Source of the DNA: Beijerinckia sp. 28-YEA-48
GTDB lineage: Bacteria; Pseudomonadota; Alphaproteobacteria; Rhizobiales; Beijerinckiaceae
Length of the DNA stretch: 64,000 bases
Assembly: GCF_900104955.1 (NCBI RefSeq)
Contig: NZ_FNSI01000001.1
Coordinates: 5,118,001 to 5,182,000, forward strand
Direction of reading: 5' to 3'
The position numbers and the translations under genes are program-made. The notes beneath the pieces were generated by a model, which worked only from the letters and a program-made list of their open reading frames with translations, had not been told where the DNA came from and did no database searches. Within the stretch, counting starts at the first letter, position 1. Every line of letters begins with the position of its first letter. Shown here one piece after another: positions 48,735-63,617 of the stretch.

Positions 48735-49946
48735 TTAAGCCATGGCCTTCTTGAGGTTTTCGTCGATCTTGTCGAGGAAGCCGGTCGTCGACAGCCACTT
48801 CTGGTCGGCGCTGACCAGGATCGCCAGATCCTTGGTCATGAAGCCTGATTCGACCGTGTCGACGCAGACTTTTTCCAGGGTCTCGGCAAACTTCAGCAGG
48901 GCGTCGTTGCCGTCCAGCTTGGCGCGGTGCATCAGGCCACGGGTCCAGGCAAAGATCGAGGCCATGGAATTGGTCGAGGTTTCCTTGCCCTGCTGATGCT
49001 GGCGATAGTGGCGGGTAACGGTGCCGTGGGCGGCTTCCGCCTCGACGGTCTTGCCGTCGGGGGTGGTCAGAACCGAGGTCATCAGGCCGAGCGAGCCATA
49101 GCCCTGGGCGACGGTGTCGGACTGGACGTCGCCGTCGTAGTTCTTACAGGCCCAGACATAGCCGCCGGACCACTTCAGGGCCGCCGCCACCATGTCATCG
49201 ATCAGGCGATGTTCGTAGGTGATGTTGGCAGCCTTGAACTTGGCAGCGAACTCGGTGTCGAACACTTCCTGGAAGATGTCCTTGAAGCGGCCGTCATAGA
49301 CTTTCAGGATGGTGTTCTTGGTCGACAGATAGACCGGGTATTTGCGGGCCAGGCCGTAGTTCAGCGAGGCGCGGGCGAAGTCGCGGATCGAATCGTCGAG
49401 ATTGTACATCGACATGGCGACGCCGGCGCCCGGGAACTTGAACACTTCCCGCTCGATGACGGTGCCGTCATCACCTTCGAACTTGATCGTCAGGCGGCCC
49501 TTGCCGGGGATCTTCAGGTCGGTGGCGCGATACTGGTCACCATAGGCATGACGGCCGACGACGATCGGCTGGGTCCAGCCGGGCACCAGGCGCGGGACGT
49601 TCTTGCAGATGATCGGCTCGCGGAAGATCGTGCCGCCGAGGATGTTGCGGATCGTGCCGTTAGGCGACTTCCACATGTCCTTGAGGTTGAACTCTTTCAC
49701 GCGCGCTTCGTCGGGCGTGATGGTCGCGCACTTGACGGCGACGCCGTATTTCTTCGTCGCTTCGGCCGCGTCGATGGTGATCTGGTCGTTGGTCTCGTCG
49801 CGCTTCTCGACCGACAGGTCATAATATTTCAGGTCGATGTCGAGATAGGGGTGGATGAGCTTGTCTTTGATGAGCTGCCAAATGATGCGGGTCATTTCGT
49901 CGCCGTCCATTTCGACGACCGGATTGGCGACCTTGATCTTCTGCAT
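48735..49946 (-). CDS. icd: NADP-dependent isocitrate dehydrogenase
   Basis: The 403-residue enzyme oxidatively decarboxylates isocitrate to 2-oxoglutarate in the TCA cycle. The N-terminus [20 protein letters not shown], the segment [16 protein letters not shown] and YENRL-like [10 protein letters not shown] are those of the NADP-dependent, eukaryote-like (type II) isocitrate dehydrogenases found in rhizobia. Walker-like loops are not expected. ATG 49946 is preceded by AAAGG; the longer frame up to 50156 has no family similarity. It has its own terminator. Confidence 0.96.
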
Positions 49947-50230
49947 GTGGCGCGACCTTTCAAATTCAGGGCAGCTATGGATGGGCCGGGATCGGCCAGA
50001 TGAATTCCTGTGCCGGACGGTCCTCAAATGCGAGGGGCCATCCGGTCGGCGCGCCCCCTTAGCATGGGTGGCCGAAACGGCAAATACGGGTGCCTCGACC
50101 ATCAGCCAAAATTTCGCGAGGGCTGGCGGGAAACGAAAAGCTGCAATATCGTGCAAACCCTAGGGAGAGCGCCTAATCGCCGGGATTTATACGCCGGCAC
50201 ATCACTTGCGCTCGGAGAGGGAGGGAAAAT

Positions 50231-51808
50231 ATGCTCACCAAAGGTCGATTCACGCGTCGATTTGGACTGGCCGTCGTTGCCGCTTCGGGGGCGGCCGCCG
50301 CCGGGCTGATGCCGCTGCCGGCCCTGGCCCAAAAGGCCCAGGATACGTTGCGCATCGGTGCCTACCAGCCGATTTCGATCATCGACGCCCTGTATGACCC
50401 GCAGCCACAGACCAATCTGATGGACCGGGTCGTTTTCGACACTTTGGTGCAATACGATTCGGACAAGCGCGAAGTGGTGCCCGGCCTGGCGGAATCCTGG
50501 AAATTCCTCAATGACACCACGGTCGAGTTCAAACTGCGCCAGGGGGTGAAATTCCACGACGGGTCGGACTTCACCGCTGACGACGTGGTCTATACGGTCA
50601 ATTTCGTCATCGATCCGTCGAGTAAGTTCCGCTTCAAGGAAACCCGTTTCGGCCTGTTCGAGTCGATCGAGAAGATCGACAATTACACCGTTCGCCTGAA
50701 GGTCAAATCGCCTTACGCTTCGCTGTTGACGCGCATGGCCTCGACCCTGCCGATCTATCCGGCGCACATCCACAGCAAGCTCGCCGATAAATCGACGTTC
50801 GGCCGCAATCCCATCGGCACCGGTCCCTATAAGGCGACGATGGTCGATCCCAGCAAGGGCGTCATCCTGGAGAGGAATCCCTTCTTCAAGGAGGTCAATG
50901 CCGGCCAGCCGGCGGCCAAGATCGGCAAGATCGTCGTCATGCCGATTCCCGATCAGCAGACTCAGCTCGCCAAGATGATGATCGGCGAGCAGGACCTGAT
51001 GTATGACGTGCCCACCGACATCGCCGAGATGATGAAGGGCAATCCGAATATTCAGATTTCGGTGCGTCCCAGCATCTCCTTCACCTATCTGGCGCTCGAT
51101 GCGGCCAATCGCTCGGGCTTCGATAAGTTCAAGGACATTCGCGTGCGCGAGGCGATGTTCCGCGCCATCGATCGCAAGGCCTTGGTCAATGCGTTGCAGC
51201 CCAAGGAAATCGCCGACCAGCCGTTGCAGCAGGCGATGTGCCACTCGTGGCATTATTCCTGCGCATCGTCGATCGACCCACCTTCCTATGACCCGGCCAA
51301 GGCGAAGCAGCTTTTGACCGAGGCCGGCATGCCCAACGGGTTCAACGTGACGATCGCCACCTGGGGCGCGGCGCGGCCGGTGGCCGAAGCGGTCGCCGGG
51401 CAATTGCGCAAGGTTGGCATCAACGCGGCGATCGACAGCCTGACGTCGACCGGTTTCATCACCAAGCGCGCGGCTGGCCAGCTGCAGGCCTATATCGTGC
51501 TTTGGGATAATGGTGGCGGCACGCCGGACGTCGAATCGACGGTCAACTTTTTCTATGAGAAGGGCGATCGTAACTACAATCAGGATTCGGAGCTGGAGGA
51601 GCTGCAGAAGCAAGCCCTGGCCGAAATGGATCCGAAGAAGCGCGAAGCACTCCACAAGCGCATTTTCGACAAGGTGACCACCCAGCGTTATTCGATGCCG
51701 ATCACGCCATTGGCTGCCATCATCGCCCACAGCAAGGACGTGAAGATTCCCGTCAGCGGCACCAAGAAGCCGGAAGGCTTCATGTTCAACCTGCTGGAAT
51801 GGAAATGA
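50231..51808 (+). CDS. peptide/nickel-type ABC transporter binding protein, copy 1
   Basis: The 525-residue protein has a twin-arginine-like N-terminus (RRFGLAVVAA), a signal peptide ending ALAQ near residue 34, and the family 5 (SBP_bac_5) fold with VPGLAESWKFLNDTTVEFKL, HDGSDFTADDVVYTV, and NPIGTGPYKAT. These proteins bind oligopeptides, nickel or other small compounds for ABC uptake. A strong terminator follows directly and no permease or ATPase gene is linked. A paralogue follows 154 bases downstream. A GGGAGGGA ribosome site precedes the ATG. Confidence 0.92.
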   Translation: MLTKGRFTRRFGLAVVAASGAAAAGLMPLPALAQKAQDTLRIGAYQPISIIDALYDPQPQTNLMDRVVFDTLVQYDSDKREVVPGLAESWKFLNDTTVEFKLRQGVKFHDGSDFTADDVVYTVNFVIDPSSKFRFKETRFGLFESIEKIDNYTVRLKVKSPYASLLTRMASTLPIYPAHIHSKLADKSTFGRNPIGTGPYKATMVDPSKGVILERNPFFKEVNAGQPAAKIGKIVVMPIPDQQTQLAKMMIGEQDLMYDVPTDIAEMMKGNPNIQISVRPSISFTYLALDAANRSGFDKFKDIRVREAMFRAIDRKALVNALQPKEIADQPLQQAMCHSWHYSCASSIDPPSYDPAKAKQLLTEAGMPNGFNVTIATWGAARPVAEAVAGQLRKVGINAAIDSLTSTGFITKRAAGQLQAYIVLWDNGGGTPDVESTVNFFYEKGDRNYNQDSELEELQKQALAEMDPKKREALHKRIFDKVTTQRYSMPITPLAAIIAHSKDVKIPVSGTKKPEGFMFNLLEWK

Positions 51809-51828
51809 TCCTGCGGCACTAGAAGACA

Positions 51829-51864
51829 AAGGGGCGGCGCTCGGACAGGGGGCCGCCCCTTTTT
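51829..51864 (+). terminator. terminator between the two binding-protein genes
   Basis: A 10-bp GC-rich stem (51829-51838 with 51852-51861) is followed by a T-run. It implies that the two paralogues are expressed separately. Confidence 0.85.
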
Positions 51865-51962
51865 ATTTTCCTGCTCCTATTCTGCGACAAATCACTTTCT
51901 GCGACAAATCACTGGGCGACAGGGCGCGACGACAAGCGGCCAAGCCCGGACGGGAGGACGCG

Positions 51963-53522
51963 ATGGGTATCACACGTCGATTGCAGTGTCGGCTTGGGCT
52001 GGCTGTCGTTGCTGCGAGTCTATTGTCTTGGCCGGCGCAGGCGCAGAAAGCGCAAGACACATTACGCATCGGCGTCTACCAGCCGATCTCGATGATCGAC
52101 GCGCTCTATGATCCGCAGCCACAGACGGCGCTGATGGACCGCGTGGTCTTCGATACGCTGGTGCAATACGATTCCGACAAGCGCGAAGTGGTGCCGGGCC
52201 TGGCGGACTCCTGGACCTTCATCGACGACAGAACGATCGAATTCAAATTGCGCCAAGGCGTCAAATTCCACGACGGTTCGGACTTCGATGCCGACGACGT
52301 GGTCTACACCGTCAATTTCATTCTCGATCCGTCGAGCCGTTTCCGCTTCAAGGAAACGCGTTACGGCCTGTTTGAATCGGTCGAGAAGATCGACGCATTC
52401 ACGGTGCGTTTGAAAATCAAAATGCCCTATGGGCCGATCCTGTCGCGGCTGTCGACTAGCCTGACGATCTATCCCTCTGACGTTCACGGCAAGCTTGCCG
52501 ACAAATCGACCTTCGGCCGCAACCCTATCGGTACGGGGCCTTACAAGGCCACGATGGTCGATCCGGCGCGAGGCGTGGTGCTCGAAAAGAATCCCTATTT
52601 CAAGGAAATCAACGGCGGGCAGAAGGCGGCGAAGATCGGCAGGATCATCGTCATGCCGATTCCCGATCATCAGACACAGCTCGCCAAGATGATGATTGGC
52701 GAACAGGACCTGATGTATGACGTGCCGAGCGAAGTCGCCGAGCTGATGCGGGGCAATCCCCATATTCGGCTCGCGGTGCGCCCGAGCATAGCATTCACCT
52801 ATCTTGCGCTTGATGTCGGGGCCCGCTCCGGGGTCGACAAGTTCAAGGACAAGCGCGTGCGTGAGGCGGTGTTTCGCGCCATCGATCGCCAGGCCCTCGT
52901 CAATGCGCTGCAACCGCAGGAAATCGCCGCCGAGCCCCTGCAGCAGGCCATGTGCCATTCCTGGCATGACGGCTGCGTGTCGTCGCTGACGCCGCCGGCT
53001 TACGATCTGGCGCAATCGCGGCACTTGCTGAAGGAGGCCGGGCTGCCGAGCGGTTTCAGCATGACGATCGCCACCTGGGGCGCGGCCCGGCCGGTGGCGG
53101 AAGCGGTGGCCGGGCAACTGCGCCGGGTCGGCATCACGGCGGCCGTCGAGAGCCTGACCTCGACGGGCTTCATCAGCAAGCGGGCCAGTGGCCAGCTGGC
53201 CGCCTATATCGTCGCCTGGGACAATGGCGGCGGTAATCCCGACGTGGAATCGACGGTCAATTTTTTCTACGAAAAAGGCGACCGTAACTACAATCAGGAC
53301 GCGGAACTGGAGCGTCTGCAGAAGGCGGCCCTGGCCGAGACGGACCCGAAGAAGCGCGAGGCGATCCACAAGGTCATTTTCGACAGGGCCACGGCGGAAC
53401 GCTATTCGATGCCGGTCACACCCCTGGCGTCCCTGATTGCCCATAGCAGGGATGTGAAAATCCCCGTGGGCGGCACCAAGAAGCCTGAAGGCTTCACGTT
53501 CAACCTGCTGGAGTGGAACTAG
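51963..53522 (+). CDS. peptide/nickel-type ABC transporter binding protein, copy 2
   Basis: The 519-residue protein is a close paralogue of the preceding gene; long stretches match nearly residue for residue, such as VPGLADSWTFIDDRTIEFKL and NPIGTGPYKATMVD, and both end LLEWN/LLEWK. A short signal peptide (to about residue 29) precedes the SBP_bac_5 fold. The two copies differ in the signal peptide and in scattered pocket positions, so ligand preferences may differ. The family 5 fold serves peptide, nickel and glutathione transporters. No ABC permease is linked. Confidence 0.92.
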   Translation: MGITRRLQCRLGLAVVAASLLSWPAQAQKAQDTLRIGVYQPISMIDALYDPQPQTALMDRVVFDTLVQYDSDKREVVPGLADSWTFIDDRTIEFKLRQGVKFHDGSDFDADDVVYTVNFILDPSSRFRFKETRYGLFESVEKIDAFTVRLKIKMPYGPILSRLSTSLTIYPSDVHGKLADKSTFGRNPIGTGPYKATMVDPARGVVLEKNPYFKEINGGQKAAKIGRIIVMPIPDHQTQLAKMMIGEQDLMYDVPSEVAELMRGNPHIRLAVRPSIAFTYLALDVGARSGVDKFKDKRVREAVFRAIDRQALVNALQPQEIAAEPLQQAMCHSWHDGCVSSLTPPAYDLAQSRHLLKEAGLPSGFSMTIATWGAARPVAEAVAGQLRRVGITAAVESLTSTGFISKRASGQLAAYIVAWDNGGGNPDVESTVNFFYEKGDRNYNQDAELERLQKAALAETDPKKREAIHKVIFDRATAERYSMPVTPLASLIAHSRDVKIPVGGTKKPEGFTFNLLEWN

Positions 53523-55335: not shown

Positions 55336-56262
55336 ATGGTGCGCCGCTTCACGCAAATTGCGGAGCTTCTGGTGGTCGGCGCAGGCACGAACAAATCACA
55401 ACCGAACATTGCCTGCGGACCCGCGGTCATTCTGGTGCGGCCGCAATTGGCGGTGAACATCGGCATGTGCGCGCGGGCGATGGCCAATTTCGGCCTCAAC
55501 GACTTGCGCCTGGTCAATCCGCGCGAGGGCTGGCCGCGCACCGGCGCGCTGCGCAAGGGCGCCAATGCGGCGGCGGCTGGCGCGGTGCATCTGCTCGAAG
55601 GCGCGAAACTGTTCGACAGCCTGGAAGAGGCGATCGCCGATCTCAATTTTGTCTGGGCGACGACGGCGCGTGAGCGCGGTCAGGGCAAACGGGTGGAGCC
55701 GCCGGAGGCTGCCATGCGCGAGACCCAGGCGGGCTTCGCCACGGGCGCCAAGCACGGCATTCTCTTTGGCCCCGAACGCACCGGCCTCGACAGCGACGAA
55801 GTGGCGCTCGCCGATGCCATCATCACCTTTCCGGTCAATCCGGCCTATGCGTCCCTCAACCTGGCGCAGGCGGTACTGTTGACCGGTTACGAATGGTTTC
55901 GCGCCGCTCATTCTGCGGCGCTGCCGTTCGAGACGCCCGAGCGTTCGCATCCGGCGACCCGCGAAATGATCGTCTCCTTCTTCAATTATTTCGAGAGCAA
56001 GCTCGATGAAGGCGGCTTCTTCCGCCCCCTCAGCAAGCGGCCGAGCATGCAGCGCAATATACGCAACATGTTCCACCGCATGCAGTTGACCGAGCAGGAC
56101 GTGCGCACCCTGTGGGGCGCCATCGTCCGCATTTCCGAAGGGCCGCGGCTTCAAGCCAAGACGCGGCAGCGGCAGAAGCAAGCATCAGAGGAGCCGGAGG
56201 ATGCGGAAGCCCCGGCTGGCCAAGATGCCGGCGGCGCGGTAGGCAAGCTGTCAGACGAATAA
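55336..56262 (+). CDS. trmJ: TrmJ-like tRNA (Cm32/Um32) methyltransferase
   Basis: The 308-residue SPOUT-class methyltransferase has IGMCARAMANFGL, KHGILFGPERTGLDSDEV, and the knot motif FPVNPAYASLNLAQAV. TrmJ methylates the 2'-O of nucleotide 32 in several tRNAs. The N-terminal 30 residues extend the family start; a GTG at 55372 with GGAG seven bases upstream is an alternative initiation site. A polar Gln/Glu-rich tail (about 275-308) lies beyond the fold. It is 80 bases downstream of the helicase and probably cotranscribed with it. Confidence 0.87.
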   Translation: MVRRFTQIAELLVVGAGTNKSQPNIACGPAVILVRPQLAVNIGMCARAMANFGLNDLRLVNPREGWPRTGALRKGANAAAAGAVHLLEGAKLFDSLEEAIADLNFVWATTARERGQGKRVEPPEAAMRETQAGFATGAKHGILFGPERTGLDSDEVALADAIITFPVNPAYASLNLAQAVLLTGYEWFRAAHSAALPFETPERSHPATREMIVSFFNYFESKLDEGGFFRPLSKRPSMQRNIRNMFHRMQLTEQDVRTLWGAIVRISEGPRLQAKTRQRQKQASEEPEDAEAPAGQDAGGAVGKLSDE

Positions 56263-56291: not shown

Positions 56292-57017
56292 ATGACCATT
56301 CTCTTGGTGCATGGCGCCTGGGCTGGCGCATGGTCATGGCGCGATACGGCGCGCCTACTGCGCAAACAAGGGTTCGATGTCTATGCACCGTCAATGACGG
56401 GCATTGCCGAGCGCTCCCATGTCGACCCGCGCTCCGTTAGTCTCTCGACGCATATCGCCGATATCGCCGGCCTGATGCGTTATGAGGAATTGGAAAACGT
56501 TCTCGTCGTCGGCCACAGCTACGGCGGCATGGTGATCACCGGCGCGGTGGATCGCGAGCCGCAACGCGTCGCCGGCATGGTCTATCTCGATGCCTTCCTG
56601 CCCAAGAGCGGGCAATCGCTCTGGGATATCGTCGGCGAAGAGCGTGTCGAGATGCAGAAGAAAGGCGCGATGGCCCATGACGGCGGCCATTCGGTGCCGC
56701 GCCCCAACGTGCCGCCGATGCCGCCAGAGCTGGCGGCGCAATGGGGACCGCTGTTCACGCCGCAGCCGATCGGCACCCTGTCGGAGAAATGGGTCTCGGT
56801 GCGGCCTGAGGCTGAGCGCACTTGGCCCAGGCGGCACTACATTCTCTGCACGGCCTACAAGGACTCGCCCTTCTATCAATTCGCCGACGAGGTAAAGGGC
56901 AAGCCCGATTGGGACTATAGCGAATTCGACGCCCTGCACGACGTGGTGCGCTCCCATCCCGAGATGACGGCGACCCGCATCGCCGAGATCGCTCGCAATT
57001 GGGGGATCAAGGAGTAG
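56292..57017 (+). CDS. alpha/beta-hydrolase (hydroxynitrile lyase/esterase type)
   Basis: The 241-residue cytoplasmic protein has the alpha/beta-hydrolase fold with the oxyanion region VHGAWAGAWSW and nucleophile Ser76 in GHSYGG. The C-terminal DVVRSHPEMTA is a likely site of the catalytic histidine. Plant hydroxynitrile lyases and esterases such as SABP2 share this pattern. The substrate is unknown. A GGGAGGAATAA ribosome site precedes the ATG. It is possibly the third gene of the rhlE-trmJ unit, with 29 bases from trmJ. Confidence 0.85.
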   Translation: MTILLVHGAWAGAWSWRDTARLLRKQGFDVYAPSMTGIAERSHVDPRSVSLSTHIADIAGLMRYEELENVLVVGHSYGGMVITGAVDREPQRVAGMVYLDAFLPKSGQSLWDIVGEERVEMQKKGAMAHDGGHSVPRPNVPPMPPELAAQWGPLFTPQPIGTLSEKWVSVRPEAERTWPRRHYILCTAYKDSPFYQFADEVKGKPDWDYSEFDALHDVVRSHPEMTATRIAEIARNWGIKE

Positions 57018-57165: not shown

Positions 57166-58476
57166 TTAGGCGACAGCCTCAATCAATGCCTTGAAGCGGT
57201 CGCCGCGATCCTCGAAATTGCGGAACTGGCCGAAGCTTGGCGCTGCGGGCGAGAGCATGACGACGCCGTCCTGCGGCACGCGCGCCATGGCCTCGCGCAC
57301 CGCCTGGGCGAGATCGTCGACCGGCACGATGGGGAAGGGCCAGTCACGACCCTTCATCTCTTCGGCAATCCGTCGGCCGGTGTCGGGCAAGAGCAGCAAG
57401 GCTGCGAGACCGGCGCCTGGCAGATAATCCAAAAGCGCGGCGTGGTTCTGGCCGCGATCGTGACCGCCGAGGATGAGCACGCAGGGCAGGCCGCGATAGG
57501 CTTCGAGCGCCACGAGGGTGGCTTCCGGCACGGTCGAGATCGAGTCATTGACACAAAGCACGCCATTCTTGGTGCGGAATTCTTCCTGGCGATGGCGCAG
57601 CTGGGCGAAATCGGGAATGGCGACGCGCTGACGCAAGCCTTCGATGCCGAGATCGTCAGCGACCGTGCAGGCGGCGGCGAGATTTTCCAGATTGTGGCTG
57701 CCGCGCAGCGGGAACTGGCTGGTGTCGACCTTTTGATCGCGAAAGAACAACGCGCCGTCGCGGACATGGAAGCCGTCGTCGCGATTGTACCACAGCACAT
57801 TAGCGCGCTGGCCCGCATGGCTGCGCAGGCCTGCGTTGCCGTGATTGAGCACGGCGCGCGTACTCGGATCGGCGATCAAGCGCAGTTTGTCGGTGTGATA
57901 TTGCGCGATCGAACCGTGCCAGGGCACGTGATCGACATAGAGATTGGTGATGACCGCCATCGACGGCGCATGGGCGAGGTCGGCGATCTGATAGGACGAG
58001 AGTTCCAGCACCGTATGATCGCGACCGGCTTTCTGGCCGAGTGCCGCGACGCCGACATTGCCGAGCAGCGCCACGTCGCGTCCGGCCTGTTGCAGGATAT
58101 GATGCAGCAGACGCGACGTCGTGCTCTTGCCCTTGGTGCCGGTGACGGCAATCGTGTGGGCACTGGCGTTTTCCTTAAACCATAGATTGGTGGCCGATGT
58201 GATCGTGGCGCCAAGCGCCCGTGCCGCCGTTGCTTCAGGCCGGTAGAGGCTGATGCCGGGGCTTTTGACGATGATGTCGAAAGGCTCGGTGCGCAGCGCT
58301 TCGCCTGCGGCTTCGCCGGTGAGGACGCGTACCTGGGCCGGCGGGGCCGTATCGAGCGGCGTGTCGTTGAGGATGGTGAAGGCATCGCCCGGATGCAGCG
58401 CTTGCAGATGGACGAGTGCCGCCTGGCCCTCGCGGCCATAGCCCCATATGGCGATTTTGCGCGGCTTAACGGACAT
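57166..58476 (-). CDS. murD2: MurD2-type UDP-MurNAc-L-Ala-L-Glu ligase
   Basis: The 436-residue protein is a Mur ligase with an N-terminal Rossmann-like domain (IAIWGYGREGQAALVHL), ATP-binding GTKGKST at 113-119, and the central motif ELSSYQIADL. It resembles MurD, but it overlaps by 11 bases a downstream-type gene for MurL-like protein, an arrangement reported for Xanthomonas, where MurD2 adds L-glutamate to UDP-MurNAc-L-Ala and MurL epimerises it to D-glutamate. ATG 58476 is favoured; the start at 58497 lies inside murL. A classical murD in the mur cluster would be elsewhere. Assignment as MurD2 is by context. Confidence 0.82.
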   Translation of the reverse strand: MSVKPRKIAIWGYGREGQAALVHLQALHPGDAFTILNDTPLDTAPPAQVRVLTGEAAGEALRTEPFDIIVKSPGISLYRPEATAARALGATITSATNLWFKENASAHTIAVTGTKGKSTTSRLLHHILQQAGRDVALLGNVGVAALGQKAGRDHTVLELSSYQIADLAHAPSMAVITNLYVDHVPWHGSIAQYHTDKLRLIADPSTRAVLNHGNAGLRSHAGQRANVLWYNRDDGFHVRDGALFFRDQKVDTSQFPLRGSHNLENLAAACTVADDLGIEGLRQRVAIPDFAQLRHRQEEFRTKNGVLCVNDSISTVPEATLVALEAYRGLPCVLILGGHDRGQNHAALLDYLPGAGLAALLLLPDTGRRIAEEMKGRDWPFPIVPVDDLAQAVREAMARVPQDGVVMLSPAAPSFGQFRNFEDRGDRFKALIEAVA

Positions 58477-59830
58477 AGGCGTCGAGCATCGCGGCATAGC
58501 GGGGCGGCAGGGCGTGATCGAACGACGGCGTCATCAACTCAGCCCACACCTCTTGCCAATTTGGCATCAGCGTTTTGAGGCGCGGCGCCAGCGCACGAAT
58601 GATAGCGGCGTCTTGCCATTCGGGCCGCTCGGCCAGGCGCAACAGCGCCGCGCCGGATTCAGCGATCTCGCCGACGCATTCCCACGGCTTGTGGCCGGAG
58701 AGGCCCATCAGTTCCTCATAGCCCTGCGTCTGCGTTTCATCGTCGAGCATGTTCTTGCCGAGAATGGCTTCGATGCGCGACTTCTCCATCGCATTGGCGA
58801 GAATGAGGAAGGTGAAACGGCATTTCGGACAATCACCGCACCAGCGCTTTGGCTCCTGCTTTGGATTGATCTGGAAGGCGCGGTTGCAGGAGGTGAAGGC
58901 GTGATCGTAGCGGCTCACGCGCGCCATCAGCTGGCCGATGTGGGCTTCCGACAGGGGGCGCAGCAGTGAGAAATAGCTCAGGCCCTTGTCGATATGGCGC
59001 GCCACATAAGCGGAGAGCTCGCGCTCGGCGCCAGTGGTCTTGGAGAACTGGTGGTTGATGTCGCGGCCATCGACATTGACATTGCCTTGGTCGGCGGAGC
59101 GTTCATTCGACAGCACGACAGTATCGAAGCCGTAAACGAAACTCGCGGCCAGCGCGATGAAGCTGACGATGGCGGTGATCGGCACATGGCCGTTGAGCGC
59201 GCCCTTTTCGTTCAGCTCAAACAGCAGCGGATCGAGCTTGCGGGTCACCTGGGCGAAGGGCAGGCCGCTGGCGGCCGCGGATTCGAGAATGGGCTTTTTC
59301 GGATTGACGGCGAACAGGCTCATCAGCTCGCCACCGGCACGCAGCATTTCAACCGAGACGAGCGAATCCTTGCCGCCGCCGATCAGCACGGCGGCGCGGC
59401 GGGTGAGGGGCGCGTTGCCGGCGCTGCGCACCGGGCGTGTATCGTCAAAACGCGCGTTGAGGAAATCGACGCGGGCAGCGACATCGATTTTATTGCGCAC
59501 GCCGAACTCGCCGAGGCCGTCGACATAGAGGGTCTGGAAGAAACGACGCTGCGCGTCGTCGAGGCTGGCGCCCCGGATGATGAGGTGACGAGGCAGGCAG
59601 GTCTTATAATAGGAAACGCCGGCCAGGATGTGCAGCGCCTCGAGCGCCGCCTCGAAGCCCGGCCGCAATGGCGAGCTGGCGGCGGGCAGGGGCGCTTCGA
59701 AGGTCAGCCGCTCGGTAAAGGCGAGGGCGTCGCCGAGCCGGTAGTTGAGCGCCACCGTGCGCGTCGGTTCATCGATCGCGAAACCGTCGAAAGTGAATGT
59801 GTCGGGCCAGTCGGTCATAGTGTTTTGCAT
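58466..59830 (-). CDS. murL: MurL-type UDP-MurNAc-L-Ala-L-Glu epimerase
   Basis: The 454-residue protein matches the MurL family. It has the signature VLIGGGKDSLVSVEML (residues 148-163), a P-loop-like adenylation site reminiscent of PP-loop enzymes, and a cysteine cluster CGDCPKC (331-337). MurL uses ATP to activate and epimerise the terminal L-glutamate of UDP-MurNAc-L-Ala-L-Glu. Its 3' end overlaps the start of murD2, so both are translated from one mRNA. ATG 59830 is chosen; ATG 59818 is an alternative. The family name was recognised by motif and neighbour, not by a search. Confidence 0.8.
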   Translation of the reverse strand: MQNTMTDWPDTFTFDGFAIDEPTRTVALNYRLGDALAFTERLTFEAPLPAASSPLRPGFEAALEALHILAGVSYYKTCLPRHLIIRGASLDDAQRRFFQTLYVDGLGEFGVRNKIDVAARVDFLNARFDDTRPVRSAGNAPLTRRAAVLIGGGKDSLVSVEMLRAGGELMSLFAVNPKKPILESAAASGLPFAQVTRKLDPLLFELNEKGALNGHVPITAIVSFIALAASFVYGFDTVVLSNERSADQGNVNVDGRDINHQFSKTTGAERELSAYVARHIDKGLSYFSLLRPLSEAHIGQLMARVSRYDHAFTSCNRAFQINPKQEPKRWCGDCPKCRFTFLILANAMEKSRIEAILGKNMLDDETQTQGYEELMGLSGHKPWECVGEIAESGAALLRLAERPEWQDAAIIRALAPRLKTLMPNWQEVWAELMTPSFDHALPPRYAAMLDAYVR

Positions 59831-60154: not shown

Positions 60155-63085
60155 TCAAAATTGTGCGCGGAGACCGATGTTGCCCTTGAGGATGTAGCTG
60201 GTGCCGAAATCACGGAATGGCGTGCTGCCAGAAAGCTCGCCATAAAAGGTGAGAGCCTTGTGCCAGGTCACGCTCGCACCGAGGCCGAGTTCGCCCCATA
60301 GCCGTTCGCCGGCATTGATGATGGGTGTTCCCGCGACCAGAGTGCGCATGCCATGGAGCCATTCATAACTGACATTGGCGATTCCATAAATGCGACTGCG
60401 GCCGCCGTCCCATGAGCCTTGATGATCGAGCGCAATGCCCCAACGCGTCCGGAAGCTGTTGTTGTTGCCTGATGACACGAGCGCACCTGTCGGATCAACA
60501 AATCGATCAAACCGCACATTCGAATAGACCATCTGGAATTGCGGCGTGATGCCAAATCTCTGGCTCAACGAGATCCGTTTGCCTGCTTCGATGCTGAATG
60601 CCTCGCCGCTGCCGCCATTGTTGTGGGTGAGCAAGCCGAGAGCTTTGGAATTGAGGTTGCTGCTATAGCGGTTGATCTGCGCCTGACCGTCGACATAGAA
60701 GCCCGTGACACCATACCAGGTCAGTGTCGCGCCAAGGCCATAGCCGTTGGTCTTCAGTCCGCCGTCGCCGAACACCGAGTTGAGCCGGCTGTTGGCCTCG
60801 CCATAGGAGACGTTGGCGCTGGCCACCAGACGTCCCTTCGTGTCGCTATCGACAAGCACCCGGTCGGCGCCCACCTGCATCTTCCAGGTATCGATGCTCT
60901 GATCCAAGCCGGTGGTCGACACAGCGGCATTGCTGAAGCGGCCGCGGGCGCCTTCCGTTCGGCCCCAAATTCCATTGCCATCGCCATTGGCGCCTGGTCC
61001 CCAGATGCGGTTGCCGACGCGTTGCTGTAACGTCGGCAGAGTGTTGAGCGATTGTAAATTAGAGCCATAGGCTTCATAGACCGGCACGCCGGGCTGATAG
61101 AGTGGCATCGCAGCGGGACCGCCCGGTGCACTTGGCGTGCCGGGATCGTTCAGGGCTGAACGCAGATACCAGTCGCCATCCGTGGGTGTGGAAACGCCAC
61201 CTTGATAGAGGCGATAGACATAAGCGCCGGCAATCACCGCCGGTGCTCCACCAAAGGTATAGTTCCCGTTGAGCACGAAAGTGCCGTTGGACGCACCTGC
61301 CACCTCGACGATCCTGATGCCTTCCACCGTCTGCGCGCCAATGCCACCACGGTTGATGATGCTGACTTGTGTAACGCCTGAGGTCGAGCCGGTAATCCTG
61401 AGGCGGCTGGTCTGCGAATTGTCGTCGCCCAGAACCGTCGCGATTTCGAGGCGGCCGCCGTTGCTGACATAGTCGCCCTGAATCGTGAGGGTCCCCATGG
61501 CATTGCCATAGCCCGGCGCGATGACACCCGTATTGACGACGTGGCCCACGCTGCCGGTGCCTACGAGCCGTCCGGCGGTGTCGACCAGCATGTTGCCGCC
61601 CAGCACGCCGTTCACGGCCAATGTGCCGGCTGACACGGTCGATGCGCCGGTAAAGCCGGAGCTGTCTCCGGTTAGCGTCAATTGACCGAGGCCCAATTTG
61701 TTGAAGTTGGACGAGCCGGAAAAATTTGTGCCTATGCCGATGTCATGCCCGTTGGTGTCAAACCAGGCGCCCCCGGCTGACACGGTCAATGCCGTGAAGC
61801 CGTTCAGAAAATTGGCTTCATTTCGGTTCGCACGCAGAATGCCGCCGTTGAGGTCGAGGATCGTAGTAGTGCCAATCCCTTTGATCACCGAGCCGGTTTC
61901 GAGAACGCCACGCCCGCTGGCATCCCCGTCGAGCTGGAGCGTGCCACTCGCCGTGCTGAAGCGGCCGATATACACATCGTTGGCGGCACTCACGAAGCCA
62001 CCTTTCCCAACGGTCATCGTGCCGCTGCCGTTGCTACCAACATCAATGTAGTCGGTCGCGGTCAAACTCGAGACGTTGCCGGTGGTGCTTGAGACATTGA
62101 CCGTGCCCTGGCTGCCGCTGAAGTAACCGATATAGATGGATGCAGCCCCGCCCCCGGGTTGAGTACGCGTGTCCACCGCGGCGCCGTCCGCTATCGTGAG
62201 CGTGCCGTTGCCTGAAAACCCGACATAGATATTGTTGGCGGCATTCCAGGTCGAGGCATTGCCGTTGCTGTCGCGGCCCGAGACAATTACATTGCCCTGG
62301 CTGTCGGTCCCGTAGGCAATAACGGCTTGTCCACTGTTCACCACCCCGCCATCCAGAATGTTGAGCGTGCCTGTGCCGCCACCGATATAGACTTGGTTGG
62401 TATTGTTCCAGGTCGAGGCATGGCCGTTGCCGTCGTGGCCAGAGACAGTGACCGTGCCGGTACCAGTGCCAGTGCCGTCGCTATCGATGCCGATCAAGGC
62501 CAATGCGCTGTTCACCACCCCGCCATTCTGGATGAGGAGCGTGCCGGCGCCATTGTCGCCAATGTTGATCTGACCGGTGCTGTTCCAAGTCGAGGCATTG
62601 CCGTTGACGTCGCGGCCGGAGACAGTGACGTCGCCCTGGCTGCCGGTCCCGGCACCGATATAGGCGTCGACATTGCTCACTTTGCCGCCATCCAGGATGC
62701 TGAGCGTGCCCCTGCCATCCTGACCAACAACGAGGTCACCGTTATTGGTCCAGGTCGAGGCGTTGCCGCTCGCATCGTGGCCCGAGACGGTGACCGTCCC
62801 TTGATCCAAGGCGTTTGCGCCAATCATGCCAGTGTCATTGGTCACCGTGCCGCCGCCCAGGATGTTCAGCGTACCACCGCCTGGAACGCCAACTTGGAGA
62901 TCCTCGCCAACTGACCAGTTTGGCGATACGATGCCGCCCGGATTAACGCCGCTGCCGGTGACCGATTGCGCGCATACCGGTTGCATGCCGGCAATCGTGA
63001 CGAGCGTGACCATCGCCGTCGTCAGAAACAAGAATCGGCGGAAGCTGACGGCATGGGCGCCGTCCGTTGCCGTGCGTCTCATCAT
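60155..63085 (-). CDS. classical autotransporter (type Va) with T5SS/PEP-CTERM-type repeats
   Basis: The 976-residue protein has a long signal sequence (core FLFLTTAMVTLVTIAGM, cleavage near residue 40), a passenger of beta-helix repeats (about 50-600), and a C-terminal beta-barrel of about 270 residues ending with a terminal Phe. Four or five repeats of 54-60 residues carry GNASTWNN, IGxxGxGTLxIxxGG and SGQAVIAYG-like segments, as in the T5SS/PEP-CTERM-associated repeat family. It would be displayed on or released from the outer membrane. ATG 63085 (or 63082) follows GGGAG. Function of the passenger is unknown. Confidence 0.9.
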   Translation of the reverse strand: MMRRTATDGAHAVSFRRFLFLTTAMVTLVTIAGMQPVCAQSVTGSGVNPGGIVSPNWSVGEDLQVGVPGGGTLNILGGGTVTNDTGMIGANALDQGTVTVSGHDASGNASTWTNNGDLVVGQDGRGTLSILDGGKVSNVDAYIGAGTGSQGDVTVSGRDVNGNASTWNSTGQINIGDNGAGTLLIQNGGVVNSALALIGIDSDGTGTGTGTVTVSGHDGNGHASTWNNTNQVYIGGGTGTLNILDGGVVNSGQAVIAYGTDSQGNVIVSGRDSNGNASTWNAANNIYVGFSGNGTLTIADGAAVDTRTQPGGGAASIYIGYFSGSQGTVNVSSTTGNVSSLTATDYIDVGSNGSGTMTVGKGGFVSAANDVYIGRFSTASGTLQLDGDASGRGVLETGSVIKGIGTTTILDLNGGILRANRNEANFLNGFTALTVSAGGAWFDTNGHDIGIGTNFSGSSNFNKLGLGQLTLTGDSSGFTGASTVSAGTLAVNGVLGGNMLVDTAGRLVGTGSVGHVVNTGVIAPGYGNAMGTLTIQGDYVSNGGRLEIATVLGDDNSQTSRLRITGSTSGVTQVSIINRGGIGAQTVEGIRIVEVAGASNGTFVLNGNYTFGGAPAVIAGAYVYRLYQGGVSTPTDGDWYLRSALNDPGTPSAPGGPAAMPLYQPGVPVYEAYGSNLQSLNTLPTLQQRVGNRIWGPGANGDGNGIWGRTEGARGRFSNAAVSTTGLDQSIDTWKMQVGADRVLVDSDTKGRLVASANVSYGEANSRLNSVFGDGGLKTNGYGLGATLTWYGVTGFYVDGQAQINRYSSNLNSKALGLLTHNNGGSGEAFSIEAGKRISLSQRFGITPQFQMVYSNVRFDRFVDPTGALVSSGNNNSFRTRWGIALDHQGSWDGGRSRIYGIANVSYEWLHGMRTLVAGTPIINAGERLWGELGLGASVTWHKALTFYGELSGSTPFRDFGTSYILKGNIGLRAQF
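62100..62900 (-). repeat. tandem repeats in the autotransporter passenger
   Basis: Four units of about 163-176 bp recur, marked by GTCGAGGCATTGCCGTT near 62249, 62412, 62588 and 62755. They encode the beta-helix repeat containing GNASTW. Similarity at DNA level suggests recombination between units. Confidence 0.75.
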
Positions 63086-63617
63086 TCTCCGCGTGCTCCC
63101 CCGGCTACGCACGCGCCGATTGGCGAAAAGCAGTTATCCGCTAGTTCCGCCACTGAGATGCAATGCGCAATGGATAAGGTCTAAGTCAATGATAAATCGA
63201 ATCATTACGGTCGTAATACTCGAATGATCTAGGTTAATATTTGGTTATCTTCAATTGTCTTAGACCGGGGGCTGGCACGGTCGCGCAGCCACTTGCTCAC
63301 GCGCTTCTGGGGCGGTGATGACGCAGGCCCGGTCGTGAAGTTCGGCTGCGGGATCGACTGCGATGGCGGCAGCATCCGATATCGCCATCGGGCGCGACGA
63401 CCATTCCATCCGCCTATCGCTGGATCATGCCGGCCAGCTGGGATGATCCGGAATTCAGCGCCAGTCGGTCGGGAGCCGACGATAAATTGTTTCGCCTCGC
63501 TCGTGTAGCGGGCGCCGAAGCGATCGCCCGACAGGAAAGACCAGGCTGCGCTGCGCCCAACGAAGTGATAGCCTGCCGCCAAACAACGAACGGCAAACGA
63601 ACGGTAGGAGCGCGACC
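63086..63617. other. control region between the autotransporter and the dsrE-like gene
   Basis: About 530 bases separate the two divergent genes. The part next to the autotransporter (63180-63260) is AT-rich with an AATGAT/ATCATT inverted repeat at 63188-63206. No convincing gene is seen; short frames on both strands lack support. Confidence 0.45.

Follow-up and report, generated by a model that had tools for sequence, protein, structure and literature searches.

The window analysed here, a stretch of 64,000 nucleotides from Beijerinckia sp. 28-YEA-48, carries an overlapping pair of genes, murL and a murD2-type ligase gene, that very probably replaces the route of MurI glutamate racemase and MurD in this bacterium. 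L-glutamate would be attached first by the MurD2-type ligase and flipped afterwards, instead of D-glutamate being made beforehand. This reading of the sequence is based on the overlap of the two genes, the loss of murI and of the murD of the division and cell wall (dcw) cluster, the position of the pair in the interval that holds murI in relatives, the predicted fold of MurL and its conserved motifs. The features of the pair are as follows.

58466-59818, minus strand: murL, 450 amino acids, ATG at 59818; 423 bits with NCBIfam NF041275, 39% identity to Xanthomonas sacchari murL (over 416 columns), predicted local distance difference test score (pLDDT) 96.6
57166-58476, minus strand: murD2-type ligase gene, 436 amino acids; 295 bits with TIGR01087 (MurD), above the cut-off of 212; groups with MurD2
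58466-58476, minus strand: overlap of murL and the ligase gene, 11 bases
59363-59380, minus strand: PP-loop motif GGGKDS, MurL residues 147-152
58820-58888, minus strand: four-cysteine motif C311-x15-C327-x2-C330-x2-C333 of MurL, all four cysteines invariant in 60 of 60 aligned sequences
57931-57933, minus strand: codon GAT, Asp182 of the ligase, equivalent to E. coli MurD D182 and X. oryzae MurD2 E197

A sequence-only reading had proposed such a pair at 57166 to 59830, with an 11-base overlap and with GGGKDSLVS and CGDCPKC in a MurL-like protein. Both genes, the overlap and both motifs were found as described, and sequence, tree and neighbourhood support the MurL/MurD2 interpretation. The murL start was revised: the open frames of the close homologues L025 and L029 start at the position matching 59818, and 59830 is an alternative in-frame ATG four codons upstream. 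The ligase gene also has a further possible start, an in-frame ATG at 58497. MurL residues 7-447 match NF041275 over nearly its full length (model positions 9-445 of 447; expect value (E) 9e-127), and neither a Pfam family nor a solved structure matches the protein by sequence at 0.001. Among named MurL loci (the best 80 of 583) a MurD2-type gene adjoins murL in 69, and the pairing is therefore not due to chance; eight of the remaining 11 have fewer than 200 bases after murL, and three (L193, L203, L222) have 5 kb with no MurD2 match. The window's MurL is 78% identical to that of Roseiarcaceae bacterium H3SJ34-1, which is among the closest of these 80 records together with bins named Hyphomicrobiales, Rhizobium or Beijerinckiaceae. 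In the MurD tree the window ligase groups with the MurD2 proteins encoded beside murL, apart from the canonical MurD of its own genus (Shimodaira-Hasegawa-like approximate likelihood ratio test (SH-aLRT) 100, with long branches meeting near the join). Given this separation, the ligase gene most likely came from outside, as opposed to being the old murD in a new place.

A genome with this pair had been expected either to have switched routes or to have kept both, and this one has switched. Its assembly comprises 6,427,626 bases in 2 contigs and is 99.59% complete. The best match to the murI model TIGR00067 scored 21 bits against a cut-off of 147, the absence that had been named as support for a switch, and neither murI nor a D-amino-acid transaminase was found above cut-off. 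The window gene is the only murD match above cut-off. The second murD that was to be sought in the dcw cluster is missing as well: mraY stands directly before ftsW, their open frames overlapping by 4 bases, with no murD between them. Searching seven dcw stretches of murL genomes for murD remnants gave weak matches only (21-29% identity), none between mraY and ftsW. The switch is complete in this genome.

We surveyed 51 genomes of the genus, many of them fragmented. MurL was matched in 25; with G317 counted out, 24 genomes carry murL, two in pieces only (G337, G343). murI was matched at E <= 0.001 in 25 genomes and exceeded the cut-off in 23, the other two being G321 (27 bits) and the window's own genome. 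murL and murI above these marks occur together in none of the 51, save for the murL-like fragment of G317 (Fisher p 1.3e-10, uncorrected for relatedness), and neither occurs in G300, G321, G328 and G346. Restricting the count to the 30 genomes with at least 90% completeness and no more than 5% contamination leaves 13 with murL, 14 with murI and 3 with neither. In the dcw cluster the next match before ftsW is mraY in 20 of 20 murL genomes and murD in 22 of 22 murI genomes; in four others it is murD (G321, G328), mraY (G346) or no match, at a contig edge (G300). At E <= 1e-40 the MurD model was matched in 48 of 51 genomes (not in G300, G330 and G346), and in all 24 murL genomes such a match sits on the murL contig and only there. 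Two MurD pieces on different contigs in G302, G319 and G329 look like halves of one gene. No D-amino-acid transaminase scored above cut-off in any of the 51 genomes. From other genera of the family, 11 sampled genomes have murI and no MurL. The genus appears to be mixed between two routes: with close relatives of this bacterium still on the usual one, it seems to show the change between two essential pathways.

Two genomes of the survey are unusual in themselves. The MurL match of G317, which itself carries murI and murD, is a divergent 3' fragment of 26 bits in the first 320 bases of C548 (L301), at a contig end beside an apparent rpmI (named by eye), and represents contamination or a paralogue. 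G346 (L262), 97% complete, has mraY-ftsW without murD, and murI, murL and MurD2 were not found in it, probably because of an assembly gap.

Beyond the genus, MurL was found in 13 of 297 genomes sampled from the order, namely the own genome and 12 of one other family. Eight of these 13 have weak murI matches (E 4e-8 or worse) and five none (two inferred from their not being listed). In a sample of 385 genomes of the class, MurL was found in 17, with G431 giving a partial match only (103 bits), and murI at E <= 0.001 in 0 of the 16 murL genomes other than the own one, the murI search within this sample being limited to these.

The place of the pair in the chromosome was compared using flanking genes, three of which lie in the window.

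55336-56262, plus strand: trmJ-type RNA methyltransferase gene (TIGR00050 145 bits, below the cut-off of 167), a flank common to the murI locus of relatives
56292-57017, plus strand: alpha/beta hydrolase gene, which also adjoins murI in some relatives
48735-50156, minus strand: a gene that we take to be icd; its homologue adjoins trmJ in some relatives and serves as the outer flank marker

We examined 36 loci for trmJ and for rpsD, the latter named by NCBIfam. Some murI species have the order icd, trmJ, murI, rpsD and some murL species icd, trmJ, murD2, murL, rpsD, the murD2-murL pair pointing against trmJ. Both trmJ and rpsD were seen around murI in G335, G334, G320, G342 and G345, and around the pair in G298, G332, G344, G314, L150, L152 and L161. 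G000 also has both around the pair when two stretches are combined; there about 8.7 kb, made up of an autotransporter gene and other sequence, separates murL from rpsD. One flank marker was seen in G315, G297 and G307, and none in some other loci. Each of the eight longer stretches around murI in the genus contains trmJ or the hydrolase gene. In several genomes, therefore, the pair occupies the interval that holds murI in relatives. In a sister genus murI adjoins rpsD in G117 and lies 2.8 kb from it in G174, a hint, though no proof, that a murI close to rpsD represents the older arrangement; the murI stretch of G238, from another genus, has no rpsD.

To characterise MurL we predicted its structure with AlphaFold2 from 60 sequences (predicted template modelling score (pTM) 0.95). 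A Foldseek search of the PDB with this model gave three matches at E <= 0.001, QatC (9y01_B, E 5.4e-6, template modelling (TM) score 0.45 by query) and two QueC structures (2pg3, E 4.7e-5, TM 0.56 by target; the other, E 7.6e-4). Weaker matches were TtuA and Cap9 (9nto_B, E 4.7e-3, TM 0.69 by target). The MurL sequence profile alone gave weak matches to PP-loop-like proteins (E 0.03), and PF06508 was not among the 10 Pfam families listed at E <= 0.5 for 60 MurL members; we therefore regard MurL as a relative in fold and not as a member of PF06508. G147, K150, D151 and S152 of the PP-loop are invariant in 60 of 60 aligned MurL, and G148 and G149 are kept in at least 90%. MurL shares with the QueC-like PP-loop enzymes QueC, QatC and Cap9 the predicted fold, the PP-loop and a C-x(n)-CxxCxxC motif (available parts of PMC13279940 and PMC13329287). 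It differs from them in its low identity (12-17%), in reading GGGKDS in place of SGGxDS, the first Ser being replaced by Gly, and in its expected substrate, a glycopeptide carboxylate that it would epimerise. The four zinc cysteines of QatC, which has an SGGxDS loop, are spaced x19-x2-x2 (PMC13279940, in the part available) against x15-x2-x2 in MurL, whose four cysteines are a candidate zinc motif of the same kind.

Reviews of 2018 and 2021 describe MurL as having no known domains and a mechanism that is not clear; AMP is formed as a product, and adenylation was proposed without a known domain (available part of PMC5808125; PMC8788868). A QueC-like PP-loop site fits adenylation of glutamate by MurL: the loop would adenylate the alpha-carboxylate of the attached glutamate with ATP, and the predicted fold would account for the ATP chemistry of the enzyme, offering a concrete catalytic model. 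The word MurL is absent from the main text of two 2026 QueC papers, and no link between MurL and QueC was found among the titles and abstract openings listed from the one library searched. PADLOC assigned no defence family to four MurL proteins.

Several results weigh against the replacement of murI and murD by the pair. The family search proposed for MurL gave a clear match at a score below the 700-bit cut-off of NF041275. This model was drawn for Xanthomonadales; the X. sacchari protein passes it (837 bits), and homologues from Micromonospora (411 bits, from a strain other than the one assayed in vitro) and Devosia (394 bits) likewise miss, so the window protein is filed as a MurL homologue and not under the Xanthomonadales model. 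The ligase has Asp182 as in canonical MurD where most MurD2 have Glu, for which reason it is called MurD2-type by tree and context. QueC proteins have Ser as the first PP-loop residue, where MurL has Gly (PMC13329287, in the part available). Neither trmJ nor rpsD appears in the stretches examined from G303 and G310, two genomes of the window's lineage, and G310 has only the hydrolase gene nearby; no complete route was found in G346 and G300. The transaminase model passes its cut-off in just 1 of 14 control genomes, with weaker matches in 49 of the 51 genomes of the genus. Finally, murI above cut-off is absent from 79 of the 297 genomes of the order and MurL is present in only 13, which makes a missing murI weak evidence when taken alone; many of the genomes below the cut-off keep clear weaker murI matches and others none.

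The residue at position 182 bears on what the ligase selects. We counted residues in 99 distinct MurD2 rows and 21 MurD rows, cut from a 161-row alignment. Position 182 (E. coli numbering) is Glu in 88, Asp in 10 and Cys in 1 of the MurD2 rows, and Asp in 21 of 21 MurD. Nine of the Asp182 rows belong to the window's own lineage (lineage A below) and one to Longispora. All nine distinct lineage A sequences analysed combine Asp182 with Val181 in place of Pro, the window ligase reading Val-Asp (GTC GAT) where G332 reads Pro-Glu (CCC GAA); the rows of the other two murL lineages of the genus, B and C, have Glu. In X. oryzae MurD2 four residues near the glutamate differ from E. coli MurD; E197D alone and R358K alone altered stereospecificity, the two together gave a D-Glu enzyme, and P433 and F435 mutants kept their stereospecificity (PMC8788868). 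The ligase of the window's lineage might therefore be unselective between L-Glu and D-Glu and leave MurL alone to set the stereochemistry, and the effect of E197D speaks for this. We consider it possible but doubtful. The second determinant is retained as Arg341 (X. oryzae 358, E. coli K348; Arg in 98 of 99 MurD2, Lys in 21 of 21 MurD), together with the MurD2 residues Ile313 and Pro413, and the neighbouring Val181 may compensate. Ile313 occupies the E. coli 319 site (Ile 78, Leu 20, Asn 1 of 99 MurD2; Lys in 21 of 21 MurD), where a change of K319 to Thr let E. coli MurD accept L-Glu; R341, P413 and F415 are as in X. oryzae MurD2. The natural Asp182 ligases offer a test of what decides the choice between L-Glu and D-Glu. 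A ligase beside murL at another locus, L166, lacks the MurD2 residues at three sites, with Cys, Val and Ala at E. coli 182, 348 and 414.

The number of switches was estimated from trees. FtsW was found in 46 of the 51 genomes, and the murL label changes five times on the FtsW tree (46 rows) and four times on the RpoB tree (30 rows). The FtsW tree shows three murL lineages, A (with the window), B and C (G312 alone), and G312 stands with the murI genomes G315 and G324 on both trees. A single clade of all murL genomes was rejected on FtsW (approximately unbiased test, p-AU 0.0011) and a single clade of A and B was not (p-AU 0.073), pointing to at least two switches in the genus, perhaps three. 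On the RpoB tree lineage A does not form one group and G299 stands apart from lineage B; the G299 assembly contains RpoB in two long pieces and is 4% contaminated. In the murL tree (66 chosen rows) A and B form one group (SH-aLRT 96) that excludes C and Marinicaulis, and a trmJ tree built to ask whether the locus moved between A and B gave no resolution. Three independent pairs all run in the same direction, too few to reach significance. For A and B, either transfer or differential loss of an older pair may be the cause.

As the step is essential, both routes should have to coexist for some time during a swap. An ancestor of the genus could have held both, with lineages losing one or the other and no repeated transfer. 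In members of both A and B the pair occupies one and the same interval and points the same way, and their single clade on FtsW was not rejected, as such an ancestor would have it. We nevertheless think this rather unlikely, given that both routes are complete in 0 of 51 genomes, that lineage C sits among murI genomes on FtsW and RpoB and that no trmJ or rpsD match was found in 26 kb around the G312 pair. With both states present in one genus, it becomes possible to test in which order gain and loss took place.

It is very unlikely that free D-Glu is still made by another enzyme and that the pair is auxiliary or serves something else. Two genes of the own genome prompted this alternative, a racemase-family gene (C1:1252390-1253139, the 21-bit TIGR00067 match) and an extra class-IV aminotransferase on C2. 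The former scores 203 bits with the model of cysteate racemase CuyB (cut-off 190) and the latter 374 bits with that of IlvE (cut-off 246), and both were rejected as a second source of D-Glu; moreover, the remaining murL genomes of the genus gave no TIGR00067 match at E <= 0.001, and the dcw murD is gone. That murI only seems absent, being divergent or lost in assembly gaps, is scarcely credible even with many genomes of the genus fragmented, as the own assembly is nearly complete, sibling murI score 151-179 bits with the same model and a search for murI remnants in eight stretches from murL genomes revealed none (lowest E 0.32, and no match in the stretch from the own genome).

The pathway replacing murI and murD is already known, including in Alphaproteobacteria, and has been put forward as a target for narrow-spectrum antibiotics (PMC8788868). 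The Xanthomonas enzymes, for which we rely on reviews and not on the primary papers, ligate L-Glu and epimerise it in a one-way ATP-dependent reaction with AMP formed, adenylation being the authors' proposal (available part of PMC5808125; PMC8788868); in vitro work has confirmed orthologues from Micromonospora sp. and Salinispora tropica (PMC8788868). The same chemistry may be expected in this organism, with adenylation by the QueC-like PP-loop site. The window resembles X. oryzae (XOO_1320/XOO_1319) in the order murL, murD2, in the loss of murI, in an overlap as in X. sacchari, and in Arg, Pro, Phe and Ile at matching sites of the ligase; it differs from the Xanthomonas pathway in its MurL sequence (39% identity to X. 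sacchari), in Asp182 for Glu and in its neighbour genes. Devosia, Pelagibacterium and Parvularcula (PMC8788868) are also alphaproteobacterial, with the pair adjacent in the Devosia and Pelagibacterium loci examined, at about 40-47% MurL identity; unlike them, the window's genus is mixed between routes. The nearest named locus apparently outside the genus, again among the best 80 of 583, is a Marinicaulis bin (53% MurL identity). The racemase route differs in both of its genes, since the own genome lacks both a murI above cut-off and a murD in the dcw cluster. What this analysis adds is a genus mixed between the routes, with murI replaced in its own interval, the MurL fold and a natural Asp variant of the ligase; no account of the genus's switch was found among the titles and abstract openings listed from the library searched. 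Taken together, the results may outline a broader picture, which we put forward tentatively as improbable in full: an essential wall step replaced cleanly at least twice in one genus, with members of two lineages holding the pair in the interval of murI; MurL as a QueC-like enzyme turned epimerase; and a window-lineage ligase that no longer selects L-Glu, leaving MurL as the sole stereochemical gate.

MurL relatives were also seen in other settings. G431, a 100% complete alphaproteobacterium with no murI match, has a divergent MurL relative (L146, C3:135838-136326; 103-112 bits over about 170 positions) and perhaps uses another D-Glu route. Three Pseudonocardia plasmids typed as mobilizable, NZ_CP052772, NZ_CP010991 and NZ_CP011869 (L305, L306 and L307), carry MurL homologues annotated as hypothetical (36-41% identity), with no murD annotated within 6 kb in a gene table that may be incomplete; a large convergent gene, which has a WD40 repeat on two of the three plasmids, and a gene for a sigma factor lie nearby. 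In the window itself, an autotransporter gene (60155-63112, minus strand) with six type V secretion system (T5SS)/PEP-CTERM repeat matches lies upstream of murL on the same strand, and 50231-53522 holds two adjacent similar genes for apparent transporter binding proteins (named by eye).
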